DNA of 64,000 nt from an uncultured Opitutaceae bacterium (GTDB lineage: Bacteria; Verrucomicrobiota; Verrucomicrobiia; Opitutales; Opitutaceae), in NCBI GenBank assembly GCA_903929355.1, contig CAIYUN010000058.1:1-64000 (forward strand), given 5' to 3'. A program made the translations under genes and the position numbers. The notes beneath the pieces were generated by a model. It was given only the letters and a program-made list of their open reading frames with translations. It was not told the DNA's origin and did no database searches. Each line of letters starts with the position of its first letter. Within the stretch, counting starts at the first letter, position 1. Below are positions 16,551 to 54,776 of this stretch, piece by piece.

Positions 16551-16663
16551 TGGCCACAAAAAGCACAAAAATCCGTTTCTTCGGCCAGCCACGTCACAGC
16601 GCGCCTATCGGCGCGACGCAGGTGCTTGCCACCGGACATGCCCCTTGTGCCTCTTTGTGGCCA
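16551..16663. repeat. Family G inverted-repeat element (CACAAAG words)
   Basis: Left arm TGGCCACAAAAAGCACAAAA at 16551-16570, right arm TTGTGCCTCTTTGTGGCC at about 16645-16662. The loop holds CAGCGCGCCTATCGGCGCGA, also present after lutA. The right arm ends nine bases before the lutC start codon. Confidence 0.85.
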
Positions 16664-16671
16664 ATCTCCGC

Positions 16672-17286
16672 ATGAGCAACGACCGCGAAACCATCCTCAC
16701 CCGCGTGCGTGACGCGCTCGCTCCGCTCAAGGAGCGCGCGCCGCTCCCCGACTGGGATACCGAGCTGGCCATCATGCGCCGGCTCGTGCCGGCGCATGAG
16801 CCGTGGGTCCTCTTTTGCGAGCGTCTGGTGGCGGTCAACGGACTCCCGCTCGATTCCGCCGCGGCGCTGGCCGCCTGGTTGCGCGAGCACCAGCACCTCC
16901 ACGGCTACTGCGACCCCGCGCTCTGGCCGCGGCTGGCGGCGCATTTCGGCGAGGGTTTCACGGTTGAGACGGAGTATGACCGCGCGCGGGTGGATGACTA
17001 CCAGTTTGGCATCACGGCGGCGGCGGGCGCGGTCGCCGAGACCGGCACGCTCATCCTCGACGACCGCGCCACGACGCGCCGGCTGGCCGCGCTCACCCCG
17101 TGGGTGCACATTGCCGTGCTGTCCCGGGCTGCCATCTTTGCGGACCTCCAGCAGGCGGTGGCGGCGATGGGCGATGACCCCAACATCATCTGGTGCACCG
17201 GCCCGTCCAAGACAGCCGACGTCGAGGGCATCCTGATTGAGGGCGTTCACGGCCCCGGCATCCAGATCGCCCTGCTGCTGGGCTGA
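16672..17286 (+). CDS. lutC: L-lactate utilization protein LutC (LUD domain)
   Basis: 204 residues from ATG 16672 (MSNDRETILTRVRDAL). A single LUD domain: DDYQFGITAAAGAVAETGT, then GPSKTADVEGILIEGVHGP, the conserved signature near the C-terminus. LutC is the third subunit of the L-lactate oxidation complex. The frame opens earlier at 16645, but that would translate the repeat right arm. With LutA and LutB it completes the set, so the strain should be able to oxidise L-lactate without a flavin LldD enzyme. Confidence 0.92.
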   Translation: MSNDRETILTRVRDALAPLKERAPLPDWDTELAIMRRLVPAHEPWVLFCERLVAVNGLPLDSAAALAAWLREHQHLHGYCDPALWPRLAAHFGEGFTVETEYDRARVDDYQFGITAAAGAVAETGTLILDDRATTRRLAALTPWVHIAVLSRAAIFADLQQAVAAMGDDPNIIWCTGPSKTADVEGILIEGVHGPGIQIALLLG

Positions 17287-21056: not shown

Positions 21057-21488
21057 TCAGCCCACCACAATCTTCCGCGGCTTCACGGCCTCCGCCTTGG
21101 GCAGCGTGACGGTCAGCACGCCGTTCTCATAGGCAGCGCCGATCTTGTCGGCCTGCACCGTCTCGGGCACGGTGATGGCGCGGCTCAGCGGGAACGTCTC
21201 CTCACGGTCGCCGGTCTGCTGCTTGCGCGTGGCGGTGATGGTCAGGGTGCCGTCCGCCAGCTCGACGTTGATGTCCTCCCGGCGCACGCCCGGCAGCTCG
21301 GCGCGCACGTAGGCGTTGGTTTGGTCCTCGCGGACCTCGACCGGGATGCGGCCGGTCTCCGCGCCGCCGCAGGTGGAGGCGCCGAGCAGCCGGTTGATTT
21401 CGTCCTCCAGACCGCCCCATGGCGAACGAACGAAGCCGGCGGGCGCGAGGGCGCGATAGTTGGGATAGGTGTATTGCACGAGTCTCAT
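21057..21488 (-). CDS. Small heat shock protein, Hsp20/alpha-crystallin family
   Basis: 143 residues from ATG 21488 (MRLVQYTYPNYRAL). The alpha-crystallin domain runs from about residue 45: VEVREDQTNAYVRAELPGV, REDINVELADGTLTITA, then a variant of the AxxxNGVL signature in YENGVLTVTLPKA. The C-terminus ends with the short KPRKIVVG motif used in oligomer assembly. It holds unfolding proteins in the cytoplasm. The start is supported by a strong AAGGAG nine bases upstream, one of the few clear ribosome binding sites in the window. A hairpin terminator follows the stop. Confidence 0.93.
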   Translation of the reverse strand: MRLVQYTYPNYRALAPAGFVRSPWGGLEDEINRLLGASTCGGAETGRIPVEVREDQTNAYVRAELPGVRREDINVELADGTLTITATRKQQTGDREETFPLSRAITVPETVQADKIGAAYENGVLTVTLPKAEAVKPRKIVVG

Positions 21489-21497
21489 GGTGATTTT

Positions 21498-21503
21498 CTC
21501 CTT
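21498..21503 (-). promoter_or_regulatory. Ribosome binding site of hsp20
   Basis: AAGGAG on the minus strand, nine bases before ATG 21488. It decides the start against a longer frame reaching 21542. Confidence 0.8.
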
Positions 21504-23016: not shown

Positions 23017-23065
23017 ATGCAGAAGCCAGGAAGCCCGGAGACCGGCCCCAGCCTTGGTGGCCCGT

Positions 23066-23266
23066 TGAAACCACGGATAACACGGATAAGACCACCCAAA
23101 ACCAGAACCGGAGTTGGGACACAGAGCACACAGAGAATCCAATCCGAGGGCACAGAGGCAACCTAAGTGTCCCATTCCGATCATCCGTGTCCATCCGTGT
23201 TATCCGTGGTTAATTCCGGATGCCGATTTCTGGTGCCGCAATTTCTGGCTTCCTGGTTTCTGAATT
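23066..23266. repeat. Family D element enclosing E words, followed by an F-like arm
   Basis: Family D left arm CCACGGATAACACGGATAAG at 23071-23090 and right arm ending CCGTGTTATCCGTGGTTAA at 23196-23214. CACAGAG words sit in the loop. From 23225 there are TTTCTGG words (ATTTCTGGCTTCCTGGTTTC) that end 12 bases before the dus start codon. Confidence 0.85.
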
Positions 23267-23278
23267 AAAATATTTTCC

Positions 23279-25384: not shown

Positions 25385-25393
25385 ACCGGTGCA

Positions 25394-25484
25394 TCGCTTA
25401 TTGGATATTGCTTATCGCTTATCTGGATATTTTCAGAACTCCGGCAATGACCCAATAAGCGTTAACCAATAACCAATAAGCAAT
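25394..25484. repeat. Family A inverted-repeat element between nuoB and nuoC
   Basis: Left arm CGCTTATTGGATATTGCTTA from about 25394. Right arm from about 25450 (CCCAATAAGCGTTAACCAAT) to 25484. The right arm ends about 20 bases before the nuoC start. Confidence 0.9.
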
Positions 25485-25504
25485 CTCCCCCTTCACCCTT
25501 CTCC

Positions 25505-26164: not shown

Positions 26165-26165
26165 A

Positions 26166-26260
26166 ATTTTAACCACTGATTTCCACTTATTTTCACTGAT
26201 GAAATTCCCCCCATACCTCTCTGCTCCGAATCAGTGCCCATCAGTGTGCATCAGTGGTTT
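26166..26260. repeat. Family B inverted-repeat element 1 between nuoC and nuoD (CACTGAT words)
   Basis: Left arm TTTTAACCACTGATTTCCAC from about 26167. Right arm AATCAGTGCCCATCAGTGTG... ending CAGTGGTTTCC at 26262. The word here is CACTGAT, one base different from the CACTAAT of the neighbouring copy, on both arms. Confidence 0.92.
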
Positions 26261-26281
26261 CCAACTCCGATCCGAACAGAA

Positions 26282-26374
26282 TTTTTAACCACTAATCTGC
26301 ACTAAATTTCACTAATGTTTCAGGTGCCCCAATTCTCCTCCGAATTAGTGTCCATTAGTGTCCATTAGTGGTTT
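26282..26374. repeat. Family B inverted-repeat element 2 between nuoC and nuoD (CACTAAT words)
   Basis: Left arm TTTTTAACCACTAATCTGCA from 26282, right arm GAATTAGTGTCCATTAGTGT from 26342 ending in AGTGGTTTC. It lies 20 bases from element 1 and ends 16 bases before the nuoD start. Confidence 0.92.
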
Positions 26375-26389
26375 CCCACCTCCGACCCG

Positions 26390-27616: not shown

Positions 27617-27697
27617 ACGGAAAGAGGTCAGAGGTCAGAATCCAAACCACCCAACTAATCACCAGCATCCAGAAATACCACCAAGCCGAACGGACGG

Positions 27698-27790
27698 TTT
27701 AACCACTAATCCACACTAATTTCCACTAATGAAAGCCTCTGATTTCATCTCCTCCGAATTAGTGTCCATTAGTGTCCATTAGTGGTTTCC
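27698..27790. repeat. Family B inverted-repeat element between nuoD and nuoE
   Basis: Left arm TTTAACCACTAATCCACACT from about 27698. Right arm GAATTAGTGTCCATTAGTGT from about 27756, ending in AGTGGTTTCC. Before it, at about 27620-27650, AGAGGTCAGAGGTCAGAATCC words form a small additional repeat. Confidence 0.9.
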
Positions 27791-27843
27791 AACTCCGATC
27801 TGATGCTGCTCCTACCTATTTTCCGCGCTACCTCCTTCCCTTC

Positions 27844-30523: not shown

Positions 30524-30622
30524 CGCAAAGCCGCCAAGCCGCAAAGCCCTGAACCAACCTTTCACTCTAGCCCAACTCTTATCCGCCCTTTGCGTCTTAG
30601 CGCCTTTGCGTTTAATCCGAAT
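30519..30622. repeat. Family C inverted-repeat element 1 between nuoF and nuoG (CGCCAAG words)
   Basis: Left arm TTTAACGCAAAGCCGCCAAG overlaps the nuoF stop codon. Loop CTGAACCAACCTTTCACTC. Right arm from about 30585 ending TTTGCGTTTAATCCGAATCC. The loop matches those in the elements at 33705 and 34401. Confidence 0.93.
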
Positions 30623-30652
30623 CCTTTCCCGCCGCCCGCAAATAAATCAGAA

Positions 30653-30752
30653 TTTCAACGCCAAGACGCCAAGACGCCAAGCACCTCATGTTTTCCGCAT
30701 TACAATCCGCCCCTTGCGCCTTTGCTGCTTAGCGCCTTCGCGTTGAAAAACC
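30653..30752. repeat. Family C inverted-repeat element 2 between nuoF and nuoG
   Basis: Left arm TTTCAACGCCAAGACGCCAA from 30653. Right arm with GCGCCTTTGCTGCTTAGCGC ending CGCGTTGAAAAACC at 30752, eight bases from the nuoG start. Confidence 0.9.
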
Positions 30753-30759
30753 TTCCGCC

Positions 30760-33699: not shown

Positions 33700-33704
33700 A
33701 AACC

Positions 33705-33826
33705 TTTCAACGCCAAGACGCCAAGGCGCAAAGGCGCCAAGCCTCGAACCAGCCTTTCATCCTATCACCACTCCTCTCCGCCCTTGGCGTCTTCGCGCCT
33801 TCGCGCCTTTGCGTTTAATCCGCACT
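33705..33826. repeat. Family C inverted-repeat element between nuoH and nuoI
   Basis: Left arm TTTCAACGCCAAGACGCCAA to about 33743, loop CCTCGAACCAGCCTTTCATC, right arm from about 33780 to TTTGCGTTTAATCCG at 33822. Further GCACTCCGCACTCTCC words run to the nuoI start at 33852. Confidence 0.93.
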
Positions 33827-33851
33827 CCGCACTCTCCAATCCGCAATTCCC

Positions 33852-34391
33852 ATGGCCGTCGTCCCCGTCCCCCGCAAGCCGCTCACCTTTGCCGAGCGCA
33901 CCTACCTCCCGCAAATCGCGGGGGGCCTGTGGACCACGCTCAAACACTTCGTCGGGCCCAAGGACACGATGGAATACCCCGAGCAGCGCCCGGCCATCCC
34001 GCCCAACTACCGCGGGGTGCCGACGCTGGTCTTCGATCCGCACGGCCGCGAGAAATGCGTGTCCTGCCAGCTCTGCGAGTTTGTCTGCCCGCCCAAGGCC
34101 ATCCGCATCACGCCGGGGGAGATCACCTCCGACGACCCGGCGGCGCACGTCGAGAAACGCCCGCAGGAGTTCGAGATCGACATGCTCCGCTGCATTTACT
34201 GCGGCCTCTGCCAGGAGGTCTGCCCCGAGGAGGCGATTTTCCTGCAAAACCAATACTCCATGACCGGCCTCTCCCGCGCCGAGATGGTGAACGACAAGCA
34301 GCGTCTCTACGAGCTCGGTGGCACGCTGCCCGACGCCCACTTCAAGTGGGACAAGAAAAAGGCCGCCGAGGAGCACTCCCACTCGCACTGA
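33852..34391 (+). CDS. nuoI: NADH-quinone oxidoreductase subunit I
   Basis: 179 residues. The 23-kDa ferredoxin-like subunit with clusters N6a and N6b. Two 4Fe-4S motifs are intact: CVSCQLCEFVCPPKAI and CIYCGLCQEVCPEEAI. The N-terminal amphipathic part (TYLPQIAGGLWTTLKHFVG) sits on the membrane. The C-terminus is His-rich (EEHSHSH). It lies between two family C repeats, the second starting about ten bases after the stop. Confidence 0.97.
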   Translation: MAVVPVPRKPLTFAERTYLPQIAGGLWTTLKHFVGPKDTMEYPEQRPAIPPNYRGVPTLVFDPHGREKCVSCQLCEFVCPPKAIRITPGEITSDDPAAHVEKRPQEFEIDMLRCIYCGLCQEVCPEEAIFLQNQYSMTGLSRAEMVNDKQRLYELGGTLPDAHFKWDKKKAAEEHSHSH

Positions 34392-34400
34392 TGAACATGA

Positions 34401-34524
34401 TTTTTCAACGCAAACTCGCAAAGGCGCTAAGCCGCCAAGCCTCGAACCAACCTTTCACTCAAACAAATCTCCTCTCCGATCTTTGCGTCTCCGCGCCTTC
34501 GCGCCTTGGCGTTTAATCCGAATC
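34401..34524. repeat. Family C inverted-repeat element between nuoI and nuoJ
   Basis: Left arm TTTTTCAACGCAAACTCGCA to about 34441, loop CCTCGAACCAACCTTTCACT, right arm from about 34479 to CGTTTAATCCGAATCC. The right arm ends exactly at the nuoJ ATG, so the repeat forms the whole leader. Confidence 0.94.
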
Positions 34525-34525
34525 C

Positions 34526-35128
34526 ATGTCCGCCCTCCTTTTCAACTTCCTCGCGGTTTTCATCGTGGCCTGCGCCGCGGGCGTGGTGCTCAACCGCAAC
34601 GCGGTCGCCTCCGCGCTGTGCCTGCTGCTGAGCCTGGTGGGGGTGGCCGGACTGTTCGTGCAGCTCGATGCCTTCCTGCTGGCCGCGCTGCTGGTGTTTG
34701 TCTACGCCGGCGCGGTCGTCGCCCTCTTCCTTTTCATCATCATGCTGCTCGACATGCAGGGGGGGGACCGGAAGCCCTTCACCGGCCTCACGCTCGCGGC
34801 CGGCACGCTGGCCTTCCTCCTGCTGGCCGGCGGGGTGTTTTCCTTCGCCGCCCACGCGCGGCTGCCCGCCACCCCCGCACCCGCCCAGGCGGCCGGGGCC
34901 TCGCTCCAGAACTACGCCGAGTTGCTCTTCACGACCTACCTGCTCCCGGTCGAGGTCGTCGGCTTCCTGCTCCTCATCGCCATGCTCGGCGTGATCGTGC
35001 TGAGCAAGAAGTTTGAACCGGAACTGGAGCCAGGAGCCGGAAGCCAGAAGCCAGATGTCAGAAGTCAGATGTCAGATGCCGGAAATCGGAAACCGGAAGG
35101 ATCGCAGGAAATCCCGAACCACCCATGA
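34526..35128 (+). CDS. nuoJ: NADH-quinone oxidoreductase subunit J with repeat-derived tail
   Basis: 200 residues with five membrane segments (for example [20 protein letters not shown] and [17 protein letters not shown]). The family motif [19 protein letters not shown] is present. The core ends at about residue 170. The last 30 residues ([19 protein letters not shown] and so on) come from GGAAGCCAGAAGCCAGATG and GTCAGAAGTCAGATGTCAG words, an intergenic repeat type. The stop overlaps the nuoK start (ATGA), so losing the repeat frame would affect coupling. Confidence 0.95.
35020..35105. repeat. Coding repeat in the 3' end of nuoJ (CCAGAAG / GTCAGAT words)
   Basis: Words CCGGAA, GCCAGAAGCCAGATG, GTCAGAAGTCAGATG recur with one- or two-base changes. 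They resemble the AGAAGCCA words seen in intergenic DNA at 20375 and 23027. Here they are translated. Confidence 0.75.
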
Positions 35129-35430
35129 CGCCCGACCTCAACCATTACATCGTGCTCAGCGCGGTGTTGTTCGCCCTCGGCTTCCTCGGGGTGCTTGTGC
35201 GCAAGAACACCCTCGTGATCTACATGTGCCTCGAGCTCATGCTCGTCGCCTCGACCCTGGCGCTGGTGGCCTTCTCGCGCTTCAACGACACGATGGACGG
35301 CAACGTCTTCGTGTTCTTCATCCTCACCGTCGCCGCGGCCGAGGTCGCGGTCGGCCTCGCCATCATCGTGGCGCTCTTCCGCAAACGCCAGACCGTCCAG
35401 GTCGGGGAGCTCAACCAGCTGCGGGACTGA
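35125..35430 (+). CDS. nuoK: NADH-quinone oxidoreductase subunit K
   Basis: 101 residues, three membrane segments: an N-terminal one around [14 protein letters not shown], a second with the conserved Glu in [16 protein letters not shown], and a third in [20 protein letters not shown] with a second Glu. Both glutamates are proton-channel residues in the family. Length is typical. It overlaps nuoJ by four bases and is followed by a family B repeat. Confidence 0.97.
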
Positions 35431-35438
35431 ACCAATCC

Positions 35439-35531
35439 TTTGAACCACTAATTCACACTAATTTTCACTAATGGAATATTCCGATCCAAATCCTTCAGGA
35501 TTAGTGCCCATTAGTGCCCATTAGTGGTTCC
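35439..35531. repeat. Family B inverted-repeat element between nuoK and nuoL
   Basis: Left arm TTTGAACCACTAATTCACAC from about 35439. Right arm GGATTAGTGCCCATTAGTGC to AGTGGTTCC. It ends about 13 bases before the nuoL start. Confidence 0.92.
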
Positions 35532-35544
35532 ACGCCTTTTTCCG

Positions 35545-37350
<1,806 letters not shown>

Positions 37351-37362
37351 CGCGACTTCGTG

Positions 37363-39030
37363 ATGAACTTCCTCACCGACCATCTGCTCCTGTTGTCCGT
37401 CGCCGTGCCGCTGCTCGCGGCCCTGGCGGTTGCGCTCGCGCCCCGGGAGGTGGCCAAGCCGCTCGCCCTGCTCGGCTTTGGGGCCCCGCTGCTGCTGGCG
37501 TTGCACGCCTGGCGGTTCTTCCCCGACCACGCCGGCGCGGACTACGCCTTTGTCGCCAACTACGACACCGGCCTGACCGGCCTCGGCATCTCGCTGCGGC
37601 TGGGGCTCAACGGCCTCGCGCTGCCGCTCTATGTGATGGCGGCGGTGGTCGGCCTCGCGGCCGGGCTCTACGCGATGCAGTCCGGCGCGGAGCGGCTCAA
37701 GGGCTACCTCGCCCTCCTGCTGGTGATGCATGCCGGCCTGATGGGGGTGTTTGCCAGCGTGGACATCTTCTTCTTCTACTTCTTCCACGAGCTGGCGCTG
37801 ATCCCGACGTTCATCATGGTGGGGGTGTGGGGCGGGCGGGAGCGGCGGTATGCGGCGATGAAAATGACCATCTACCTGACGCTGGGCGCGATGCTGTCGC
37901 TGCTCGGCCTCATCGCCCTCTACGTCAAGAGCGGCGCGCACAGCTTCAACCTCATCGAGCTGCGCCTGGCGCTCGCCGCCACGCCCCTGACCCAGCCCTG
38001 GCAGCACCGCATCTTCGGGCTGCTGCTGTTTGGGTTCGGCACGCTGGTCTCGCTCTGGCCGTTTCACACCTGGGCGCCGCTCGGCTACGGCGCCGCGCCC
38101 AGCTCGACGGCGATGCTGCATGCGGGGGTGCTGAAAAAGTTCGGCCTCTACGGCCTGCTCCAGATCGCGCTGCCGCTCCTGCCGCTCGGCGCCCACGAAT
38201 GGGCGGGCCGGCTCGCCTGGCTCGCGGTTGCCGGGAATGTGCTGGTCATCGGCTTCGCCACGGTGGCGCAGCGCGACCTCAAGCAGCTGGTCGGCTACAG
38301 CTCGGTGATGCACATGGGCTACGCCTTCCTCGGCGTCGCCTGTTTCACCGCCGCCGGCACGGGCGGTGTGGTGCTGCTCATGGTCGCGCACGGGCTCTCG
38401 GTCGCGCTGCTGTTTCTGCTCGCCACCAGCATCCACCACCGCACCCGGACCTTCGACCTGGGCGAGATGGGCGGCCTCGCGCAATCGGCCCCGGTCCTGG
38501 CCGCGTTTTTCGTCGCCGCGACCTTCGCCAGCATCGGGCTGCCGGGCTTCGCCAACTTCTGGGGCGAGCTGGCGATCTTTGTCGCCGCGTGGCAGTTCTC
38601 CCCGCTCCTCACCGCGCTCGCGGTTGCGGGCGTGGTCTTATCGGCCGTCTACGGCCTGCGCGCCGCCGCCGCGGTCTTCTTCGGCCCGCCGACCGAGGCG
38701 TTCGCCGCCGTGACCGTCGCGCATCCGCCGGCGGACCTCCGCTGGGGTGAGAAACTCCCCGCCCTGCTCCTCCTGGTCGCGCTGCTTGGACTCGGCTTCT
38801 GGCCCAAGGCGGTCTCCGAGCCGCTCAACGAGGCCGTGACCGCCCTCTATCCCGCCCAGCCCGCCCGGGCCGCGCCAGCCGCCCCTGCGGCACCGGCTGC
38901 TCCAGCCGCCCCTGCCGCCCCGGCTGCCCCTGCCGCCCCGGCTGCCCCGGCTGCCCCGGCTGCTCCGGCTGCTCCAGCCGCCCCTGCGGCACCCTCCGCC
39001 CCAGCTGCGCCAGCTGCCCCGAGCCCGTAA
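37363..39030 (+). CDS. nuoM: NADH-quinone oxidoreductase subunit M with Ala/Pro tail
   Basis: 555 residues from ATG 37363; a GTG directly before it is also possible. Antiporter-like subunit with about 14 membrane segments: FFYFFHELALIPTFIMVGVW, GTLVSLWPFHTWAPLGYGA, PSSTAMLHAGVLKKFGLYG, LVGYSSVMHMGYAFLG. The core ends at about residue 495. The remaining roughly 55 residues are almost only Ala and Pro (AAPAAPAAP repeats) encoded by GC-rich tandem units, an extension not expected in NuoM. It starts 12 bases after nuoL. Confidence 0.96.
   Translation: MNFLTDHLLLLSVAVPLLAALAVALAPREVAKPLALLGFGAPLLLALHAWRFFPDHAGADYAFVANYDTGLTGLGISLRLGLNGLALPLYVMAAVVGLAAGLYAMQSGAERLKGYLALLLVMHAGLMGVFASVDIFFFYFFHELALIPTFIMVGVWGGRERRYAAMKMTIYLTLGAMLSLLGLIALYVKSGAHSFNLIELRLALAATPLTQPWQHRIFGLLLFGFGTLVSLWPFHTWAPLGYGAAPSSTAMLHAGVLKKFGLYGLLQIALPLLPLGAHEWAGRLAWLAVAGNVLVIGFATVAQRDLKQLVGYSSVMHMGYAFLGVACFTAAGTGGVVLLMVAHGLSVALLFLLATSIHHRTRTFDLGEMGGLAQSAPVLAAFFVAATFASIGLPGFANFWGELAIFVAAWQFSPLLTALAVAGVVLSAVYGLRAAAAVFFGPPTEAFAAVTVAHPPADLRWGEKLPALLLLVALLGLGFWPKAVSEPLNEAVTALYPAQPARAAPAAPAAPAAPAAPAAPAAPAAPAAPAAPAAPAAPAAPAAPSAPAAPAAPSP
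38868..39020. repeat. Tandem repeat encoding the Ala-Ala-Pro tail of NuoM
   Basis: Nine-base-type units GCCCCTGCC, GCCCCGGCT and CCAGCCGCC repeat about 15 times in one frame. The in-frame, threefold periodicity means copy-number change would alter tail length without shifting the frame. Confidence 0.85.
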
Positions 39031-53958: not shown

Positions 53959-53971
53959 AGGGGGCTGGCAG

Positions 53972-54062
53972 ATTTCTTATTGGGCCATTTCGGAAACATT
54001 TCCCGGGTGAGGTCAGTCCCGGTTCCTGCTGAAATTACCCAATTAGCGATATCCAATAACCC
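53972..54062. repeat. Family A inverted-repeat element before the DsbA-like gene
   Basis: Left arm GATTTCTTATTGGGCCATTT, right arm GAAATTACCCAATTAGCGAT to ATCCAATAACCC, which ends directly at ATG 54063. The loop is about 50 bases. Confidence 0.85.
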
Positions 54063-54776
54063 ATGAGCAATCGCACCGTCACCGTCACCTACTATCTCGA
54101 CATCATGTCTTCGTGGTGCCTGCTGGCGGAGCCGGCTTGGGAGCAGCTCAAGAAGCTGTATGCCGGCAAGGTGGATTTCCAGTGGCGGATCGCGCTCATG
54201 AACCCCGGCGACTTTCCCGCGTCGCGGGAGCAGTGCGACTGGTTCTACCGCCGCAGCGGCCCGATGATGCGTTCGCCGGTGATGTTCAACTCTGGCTGGC
54301 TCGAGCCGGCGCGCGCGGGCGATTACCAAGCGCCCAACCATATCGCCGAGGCCGCGCGCGACCTCGGGGTGGCCGACGACACCGTGCGCCTCGCCCTCGC
54401 CCGTGCCGCCCTGCACGACGGCAAAAAGATTGGCAGTCTCGCGGTGGCCACCGCTGTCGCCGCCAAGGCCGGCCGGCTCGACGCCCGGAAGCTCTGCGCC
54501 CGGGCCGAGTCCGCCGCCGTGCGGGCGCGGATTGCCGCGAGCACGGCCGAGTTTCACGCGCACCAGATCACGCAGCGTCCGGCGTTCATCGTGACGGACG
54601 TGATCGGCGACAAGGCGGTGTTTTCCGGGCTCGCGGTCGCCGCAGAGCTGGCGGCGATAACTGCCATGCTCGCCGACTGCGCCGCCTACGCGAGCCACGC
54701 CGCCCACCACGGCCCGCCGCCCACCACGGCCCGCCGCCGGTCAAGTAGCGCAGGCAGGGGTCAACCTTCGCTGTAG
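54063..54776 (+). CDS. DsbA-family (FrnE-like) thioredoxin-fold protein with frame-shifted C-terminus
   Basis: 237 residues. DSBA-like fold: TYYLDIMSSWCLLAEPAWEQ, FQWRIALMNPGDFPASREQC, then a helical insert and ITQRPAFIVTDVIGDKAVF. Only one Cys (SSWC) is at the usual CxxC site, so normal disulfide exchange is doubtful. The last 14 or so residues (PPTTARRRSSSAGRGQPSL) arise from a 17-base tandem duplication at 54701-54734 that shifts the frame past a stop at 54746. Without it the protein would end at 222 residues as PPPVK. No signal peptide is seen. Confidence 0.85.
   Translation: MSNRTVTVTYYLDIMSSWCLLAEPAWEQLKKLYAGKVDFQWRIALMNPGDFPASREQCDWFYRRSGPMMRSPVMFNSGWLEPARAGDYQAPNHIAEAARDLGVADDTVRLALARAALHDGKKIGSLAVATAVAAKAGRLDARKLCARAESAAVRARIAASTAEFHAHQITQRPAFIVTDVIGDKAVFSGLAVAAELAAITAMLADCAAYASHAAHHGPPPTTARRRSSSAGRGQPSL
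54701..54734. repeat. 17-base tandem duplication at the 3' end of the DsbA-like gene
   Basis: CGCCCACCACGGCCCGC occurs twice without interruption (54701-54717, 54718-54734). Because 17 is not a multiple of three, the second copy is read in a new frame. Confidence 0.97.

Follow-up and report, generated by a model that had tools for sequence, protein, structure and literature searches.

The nuo genes of an uncultured Opitutaceae bacterium are arranged on one strand between approximately 24.9 and 40.6 kb of the window, i.e., the whole 64,000-nt stretch of DNA analysed here, which is a piece of contig C58 in a genome of 3.80 Mb and 91 contigs; the closest relatives of its NuoI are NuoI proteins from Opitutae MAGs. 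One or two imperfect palindromes are found in each of the gaps nuoB-C, C-D, D-E, F-G, H-I, I-J, and K-L (Table 1). By reading, the words of the arms are CACTAAT/ATTAGTG with a period of 10 nt, CGC(A/C)AAG/CTT(T/G)GCG with one of about 8-9 nt, and TTATTGG/CCAATAA with one of about 7 nt. The z scores of the nuoH-I, I-J, and K-L hairpins were calculated against 40 dinucleotide shuffles, and the RNA folds of these three spacers were matched by 0 of 200 shuffles each. In the nuoH-I spacer the palindrome is followed on its 3' side by a CCGCACT-type repeat and then by the nuoI ATG at 33852; in the nuoI-J spacer a 9-nt tail, TCCGAATCC, lies between the arm end TTTAA and the nuoJ ATG at 34526.

Elsewhere in the window palindromes precede a lutC-like and a DsbA-like gene (Pfam matches LUD and DSBA, respectively), and hsp20 (Pfam match HSP20) has an SD-like start. 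By reading, one spacer at 23017-23278 contains three concentric palindromes, with CAGAAGCC as the outer, CACGGAT as the middle, and CACAGAG as the inner word; its RNA fold has a predicted energy of -114.8 kcal/mol (z = -9.1), and the arrangement suggests insertion into the loops of older copies. NuoM has a long Ala-Ala-Pro tandem repeat at its C-terminus (38854-39030).

Table 1. Repeat features and one SD-bearing start in the window
Feature	Position	Strand	Words and remarks	Hairpin z
Palindrome 5' of LUD-domain (lutC-like) gene	16551..16671	+	GGCCACAAAAAGCAC..GTGCCTCTTTGTGGCC, by reading; ATG at 16672	
hsp20 start	21486..21503	-	SD AAGGAG	
nuoB-nuoC spacer palindrome	25385..25504	+	TTATTGG/CCAATAA	10.7
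nuoC-nuoD spacer, two palindromes in succession	26165..26389	+	CACTGAT, then CACTAAT type	4.6
nuoD-nuoE spacer palindrome	27617..27843	+	CACTAAT	5.7
nuoF-nuoG spacer, two palindromes in succession	30524..30759	+	CGCAAAG type	7.5
nuoH-nuoI spacer palindrome	33700..33851	+	CGC(A/C)AAG / CTT(T/G)GCG tandem-word arms 33706-33741 and 33783-33818	9.6
nuoI-nuoJ spacer palindrome	34392..34525	+	CGC(A/C)AAG family, arms 34404-34446 and 34475-34516	5.7
Repeat inside nuoJ 3' end	35028..35099	+	AGATGTCAGAAGTCAG type; lengthens NuoJ	
nuoK-nuoL spacer palindrome	35431..35544	+	CACTAAT/ATTAGTG, 10-nt period; nuoL ATG at 35545	8.2
Palindrome 5' of DsbA-like gene	53970..54062	+	TTATTGG..CCAATAACCC, by reading	

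Position of the palindromes in the nuo spacers

The genes nuoB to nuoL were mapped, and the gaps between them measured, in 81 loci (80 nuoI loci from named genomes and the window); nuoL-M and nuoM-N fall outside this gap survey, no rows having been obtained for them, probably as a result of paralogue mixing. A gap was called "filled" if it was 80-260 nt long with a hairpin z of at least 4 against 60 dinucleotide shuffles and "empty" if it was 0-59 nt long, overlaps being also counted as empty in the comparison of arm family with distance and in the tree state counts; other gaps were dropped. There is some redundancy in the sample (L016 and L044 come from one MAG, and the spacers found in L125 and L126 are those already present in L004 and L005).

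Gap lengths mostly have two modes, nuoH-I gaps for example being 6-54 or 82-153 nt apart from one of 68 nt. Hairpins with z ≥ 4 are present in 92 of the 161 gaps of 80-260 nt, in 0 of 18 gaps of 60-79 nt, and in 1 of 97 gaps of 25-59 nt; 113 of the 161 long gaps beat all 60 shuffles, and 69 have no hairpin at z 4. The arms, as drawn by the scan, have a median length of about 42 nt each, and in 56 of the 92 filled gaps at least one arm is clearly periodic, the period being 7, 8, 9, or 10 nt (lags of 5-12 were tried). At least one junction is filled in 44 of the 81 loci and none is scored filled in 37, many loci being partial. The repeats and their positions are real and beyond chance.

The placement of the stems between stop and start codons is regular. 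They begin a median of 4 nt after the upstream stop codon (within 15 nt in 84 of 92) and end a median of 13 nt before the next start codon, and head and tail together have a median of 20 nt. A preliminary description of the window had placed the ends of the palindromes near the start codons, and its positions hold to within a few bases, except that the arm before nuoI is 33 nt away from the ATG. The distance is 9 nt for nuoJ and 15 nt after GTGGTT for nuoL, whose ATG is 6 nt from the arm end as drawn by the scan; by reading it is 12 nt for nuoG, 16 nt for nuoD, about 20 nt for nuoC, and 9 nt for lutC. The DsbA-like ATG at 54063 does adjoin CCAATAACCC, as described. The nuoJ ATG had been said to follow directly an arm ending in AATCC; these bases lie outside the arm drawn by the scan, and in the predicted nuoJ fold a weak basal stem extends across AATCC and the AUG.

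The proposal that the hairpins lie in the mRNA beside the start codons is consistent with the run of genes on one strand, the strong predicted mRNA folds, and their nearness to the start codons. The region has 2 promoter-like matches, no more than the 2.2 that chance would give, and one of the two, at 35452-35480, lies inside the nuoK-L repeat; the 22 terminator-like matches (11.7 expected) are all within genes. A search of Rfam at gathering scores gave no match in the window and only one tRNA in 12 loci; at E values up to 1 a single sub-threshold chance match appeared, inside nuoJ.

Start and stop contexts with and without repeats

For 67 of 90 filled leaders, the empty-leader profile of the same junction describes the 9 nt adjoining the start codon better than the profiles from elsewhere do (p = 8e-7), so that native sequence usually survives next to the start. 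At the nuoK-L junction the normal empty gap is only about 5 nt, and the longer tail there must have been brought by the insertion or added later. The predicted unpaired fraction in filled and empty leaders is 0.56 and 0.58 before the start (an interval of -20 to -4, which in short gaps reaches into the upstream gene) and 0.53 and 0.54 after it. Because the last 9 nt are usually native and the predicted accessibility is unchanged, the preliminary description was wrong to regard the repeats as complete leaders; head plus tail is, at most junctions, about as long as a normal gap. Its further proposal, that the hairpins affect translation initiation, finds no counterpart in predicted start accessibility over the whole set, and some effect of the repeats on the downstream start is possible.

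No SD sequence precedes the starts in the repeat leaders, as had been noted in contrast to the AAGGAG of hsp20, but short orthologous leaders are equally devoid of it. An SD 5-mer is present in 1 of the 92 filled leaders, where shuffles predict 0.2, and in 3 of the 378 empty ones, where they predict 1.6. Since such 5-mers are equally rare in both, the SD-free starts are independent of the repeats; loss of the SD through the repeats was therefore rejected as an explanation, with nuoJ-nuoK as a possible exception. Overlapping starts carry SD 5-mers in 46 of 73 cases (9.6 expected). Most of them (58 of 73) are at nuoJ-nuoK, where 43 of the 58 have GGAGG or AGGAG within the final codons of nuoJ. 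SD-like and SD-free starts coexist in these nuo loci, one of which (L039) is that of Verrucomicrobia bacterium IMCC26134, an SD-scarce organism with conserved CCUCC according to passages of a 2024 survey (PMC10783764).

Five long nuoJ-nuoK spacers (L004, L024, L055, L078, and L079) are without an SD 5-mer, a 4-mer being present in L079, and so by reading is that of L127, a member of the window's genus. Among the five, which were scored, only L024 and L055 have hairpins with z ≥ 4; several nuoK starts that would give gaps of 14-80 nt were left out as apparently misplaced. In the window the repeat at the end of nuoJ occupies the place at which most relatives encode the terminal ...EGLEDIK* and, with it, the nuoK SD, and only a distant AGGA is left before nuoK. 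Insertion at nuoJ-nuoK has probably broken an SD-led, coupled start. The NuoJ C-terminus of the window is repeat-coded over 35028-35128, and odd NuoJ ends are also found in L050, L074, and L078.

The comparison of start contexts with and without repeats, which the preliminary description had proposed, gave one difference in addition to the shared SD absence and accessibility. The frequency of T at positions -12 to -5 is 0.40 in the 92 filled leaders and 0.26 in 203 empty leaders with gaps of 15-59 nt, and the enrichment behind hairpins persists in independent pairs summed over junctions (25.3 vs 2.9, p = 3e-5), a comparison in which short empty gaps count upstream coding sequence. It may be due to the edge of the element, as the T-rich flank on one side of the CACTAAT family would indicate, or selection may favor a start region that is rich in U and free of structure. 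Filled and empty leaders are alike in the type of start codon and in the AT content downstream of it.

On the upstream side, TGA is the stop codon at 70 of 92 filled and 228 of 378 empty junctions, a difference reached in 0 of 1000 within-junction permutations. A repeat-linked choice of stop codon was rejected, the independent pairs giving 14.6 vs 9.5 (p = 0.31), and the difference was treated as relatedness. Filled junctions are also richer in AT, by 0.057, in the 9 nt that immediately precede the stop (0 of 1000 within-junction permutations, loci being counted irrespective of relatedness).

Turnover, word families, and relation to known repeats

Short and long states occur side by side at the same junction among the loci, and the words at one junction differ between loci (AACCACGGAT, AACCACAGAT, CACGAAA, AGTAGCG, CTGAAGG, CGCAAAG, and others). 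Within the window's genus (six genomes) the nuoH-I gap is 103-254 nt long in all six, with CGC-AAG-type, CACGGAT-type, and CCAGGAGCC-type words by reading (in L124, L127, and L128 the spacers were assessed by eye alone and carry no z score); the nuoI-J gap is empty in one of five readable genomes; and the nuoK-L gap, readable in four, is filled in the window's genome and consists of CGCC only (4 nt) in the other three. On a quick NuoH+NuoI tree of 79 of the 81 loci, the minimum numbers of state changes, given as raw counts, are 11 for DE, 14 for FG, 6 for GH, 9 for HI, 13 for IJ, and 9 for KL, with 14, 20, 9, 12, 15, and 12 filled spacers, respectively.

Arms are alike in 20 of 91 pairs from different junctions of one locus, in 114 of 563 pairs from the same junction in different loci, and in 278 of 3532 pairs differing in both locus and junction (0.6% for shuffled arms), so that genome and junction both matter. 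In identity bins with at least 12 pairs, 17-25% of the different-locus pairs are of one family at the same junction vs 4-12% at different junctions, and family sharing between loci shows no clear fall with distance. This junction effect hints at some old inheritance or at a site preference.

The repeats are abundant outside nuo. In a 463-kb sample of this genome, with genes called by a simple purpose-made caller, there are 173 spacers of 80-400 nt, of which 108 have sequence in common with another spacer and 74 with at least three; the shared sequence covers 30% of those 173 gaps, and 0 after shuffling. Of the gaps of this length, 113 separate co-directional, 25 convergent, and 35 divergent genes; hairpins with z ≥ 4 were found in 23, 4, and 3 of them, respectively. 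The frame AACCAC-NN-AT ... AT-NN-GTGGTT, a pattern that fixes the outer AACCAC/GTGGTT and is uninformative about element ends, is present 41 times in this genome and was recovered from 38 of 150 genomes in the same family and from 27 of 288 sampled across the phylum; the reversed control pattern was found in none of these searches. Several copies of the CACTAAT core in this genome are part of a dispersed repeat of 170-250 bp. The palindromes are probably dispersed repeats with repeated gain or loss, and not conserved leaders. Two longer arrangements were also seen: a long CACTAAT-family repeat in two tandem copies about 278 bp apart (L112, 1-553), and, in a spacer of the same genome between genes named by reading argB and argD (L109, 1352-1720), AATCCAAAATCC-type arms that enclose a CACTAAT-family repeat of about 250 bp, the outer right arm abutting the downstream ATG.

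Among described elements, REP/BIME sequences (GTAG, CGTC) come close: in the accounts compared they are dispersed intercistronic palindromes with many copies, located mainly between co-directional and convergent genes, and the repeats described here are likewise intergenic, palindromic, and present in many copies. Opitutus terrae is reported to be rich in GTAG REPs, and GTGG is given for most of its GTAG-20 elements in the portion of that study compared (PMC3733652). By reading, the CACTAAT copies of the window end in GTGGTT, which may or may not correspond to the GTAG or CGTC tag found at one end of a REP. REP palindromes are of 20-40 nt with stems of mostly 6-9 bp, whereas the arms here are longer, each composed of several degenerate tandem words, and several word families share one architecture, unlike in REP; tandem-word arms, nesting, and many words in one architecture are absent from the REP descriptions as far as these were compared. 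A RAYT gene flanked by the repeats was not found within 0.8-1.5 kb on each side of the four Y1_Tnp genes when exact words were searched; a ACACGGAT array is about 1 kb from one of these genes, and single words are near the other three.

The MITE-like elements RUP, NEMIS, ERIC, and Nezha, as named in the compared portion of PMC3733652, are also non-coding, intergenic, and roughly 70-300 bp long, and the occurrence of empty and filled sites in relatives is shared with MITEs; further marks of MITEs would be terminal inverted repeats that match a transposase-bearing element, and a target-site duplication. The TAACTGA heptamers of Beggiatoaceae, Cyanobacteria, and Bacteroidetes resemble them in being short tandem words which, in one species, are mostly just 5' of RBS-less start codons, but according to the excerpts compared (PMC4679880) they are direct repeats of one word with no particular RNA structure predicted, as opposed to inverted arms of degenerate words. 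No description of tandem-word or word-swapping palindromes was found in the literature searched, in which subscription journals are thinly covered. The repeats look most like REP/MITE-like intercistronic palindromes, their tandem-word arms, word changes, and nesting apparently representing an undescribed variant.

Interpretation

We propose, with a probability of about 0.62, that the nuo "leaders" are copies of several dispersed, non-coding REP/MITE-like palindrome families that have entered stop-start gaps and are tolerated there, their main effect, if any, being on the upstream gene and on coupling. The palindromes would settle between the stop codon of one gene and the start codon of the next and be transcribed within the operon as a stem-loop, and downstream initiation would stay SD-independent as before. 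Since ribosome stalling is reported for E. coli REPs located within 15 nt of a stop codon (the relevant part of PMC12306157, citing an earlier study), an effect is to be expected on the upstream gene, whose stop codon is at such a distance, and on stop-start coupling more than on the downstream start; it would be clearest where the nuoJ-nuoK overlap has been broken. The copies would persist mainly through being tolerated. This reading is supported by presence/absence and different families at the same junction, by the many genome-wide copies, by compensated stems in one chosen set, and by the roughly 13 nt in front of the start codon, which are either native or were made anew. Against it are the lack of a mobilising enzyme tied to the repeats, the same-junction family excess, the covariation in nuoF-G, which would fit selection for the hairpin, the T enrichment, which could mean that initiation is affected, the AT content before the stop, the 69 of 161 long gaps with no hairpin at z 4, and the low number of long nuoJ-nuoK spacers (two) that reach this score.

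A bolder reading, which we consider speculative and rather unlikely, is that the palindromes are self-maintaining elements found throughout Verrucomicrobiota. Tandem words of 7-10 nt (CACTAAT, CACGGAT, CACAGAT, CACGAAT, CACGAAA, CGCAAAG, AGTAGCG, and others) would be exchanged in both arms together with no change of architecture, new palindromes would nest in older loops, and the gaps between stop and start codons in operons would be colonised again and again. A putative machinery that works on hairpins or on single-stranded DNA would spread them, and correction of one arm by the other within the hairpin would preserve the palindrome.

The alternatives are less probable still. The stems, which are long, predicted to be stable, and located between genes of one operon, might be selected as elements of mRNA processing or stability, the classic REP role. 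In 13 nuoF-G spacers, picked by eye from 25 for a shared frame and with the stem also set by eye, both sides have changed at 9 of 18 pairs, against 6.1 expected, a count reached in 5 of 500 shuffles, and none of the 500 attains the covariation score; further pair types, at 12 vs 11.9 in shuffles (308 of 500), are not above chance, and independently inserted subfamilies would give the same pair changes. The stem may be under selection, each subfamily may have been palindromic on arrival, or the arms may correct each other. The many loci in which no junction is scored filled make such a role look dispensable, and we regard it as improbable.

We are about equally doubtful of the model of the preliminary description, in which leaders supplied by the repeats would regulate how the downstream nuo genes are translated and thereby the stoichiometry of the subunits. 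The short distance from hairpin end to start, the T-rich tract behind hairpins in independent pairs, the paired nuoJ AUG in the predicted fold of the window, and the association of long nuoJ-nuoK spacers with SD loss are in its favor, and the heptamer repeats next to RBS-less starts would be a precedent so far as the excerpts of PMC4679880 go. However, presence and family vary among congeners, accessibility is the same with and without repeats, SD absence is common to the short leaders, and native leader ends are retained. Least probable, by a little, is a role at the DNA level, in which phased words are the binding sites of a protein of the nucleoid or of DNA topology and their location in the operon is incidental: the CACTAAT words recur every 10 nt, separated by variable 3-nt spacers, in all matches listed (spacers of up to 3 nt were searched) and hairpins are also present between convergent and divergent genes, but the periods of 7, 8, and 9 nt in other families indicate that helix phasing is not general.

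Repeat-bordered starts should not be read as designed leaders, the native start context being visible in the repeat-free orthologue. With its repeat-filled and repeat-free junctions in 81 loci, the nuo operon provides a natural experiment on intercistronic hairpins in termination, coupling, and SD-free initiation.
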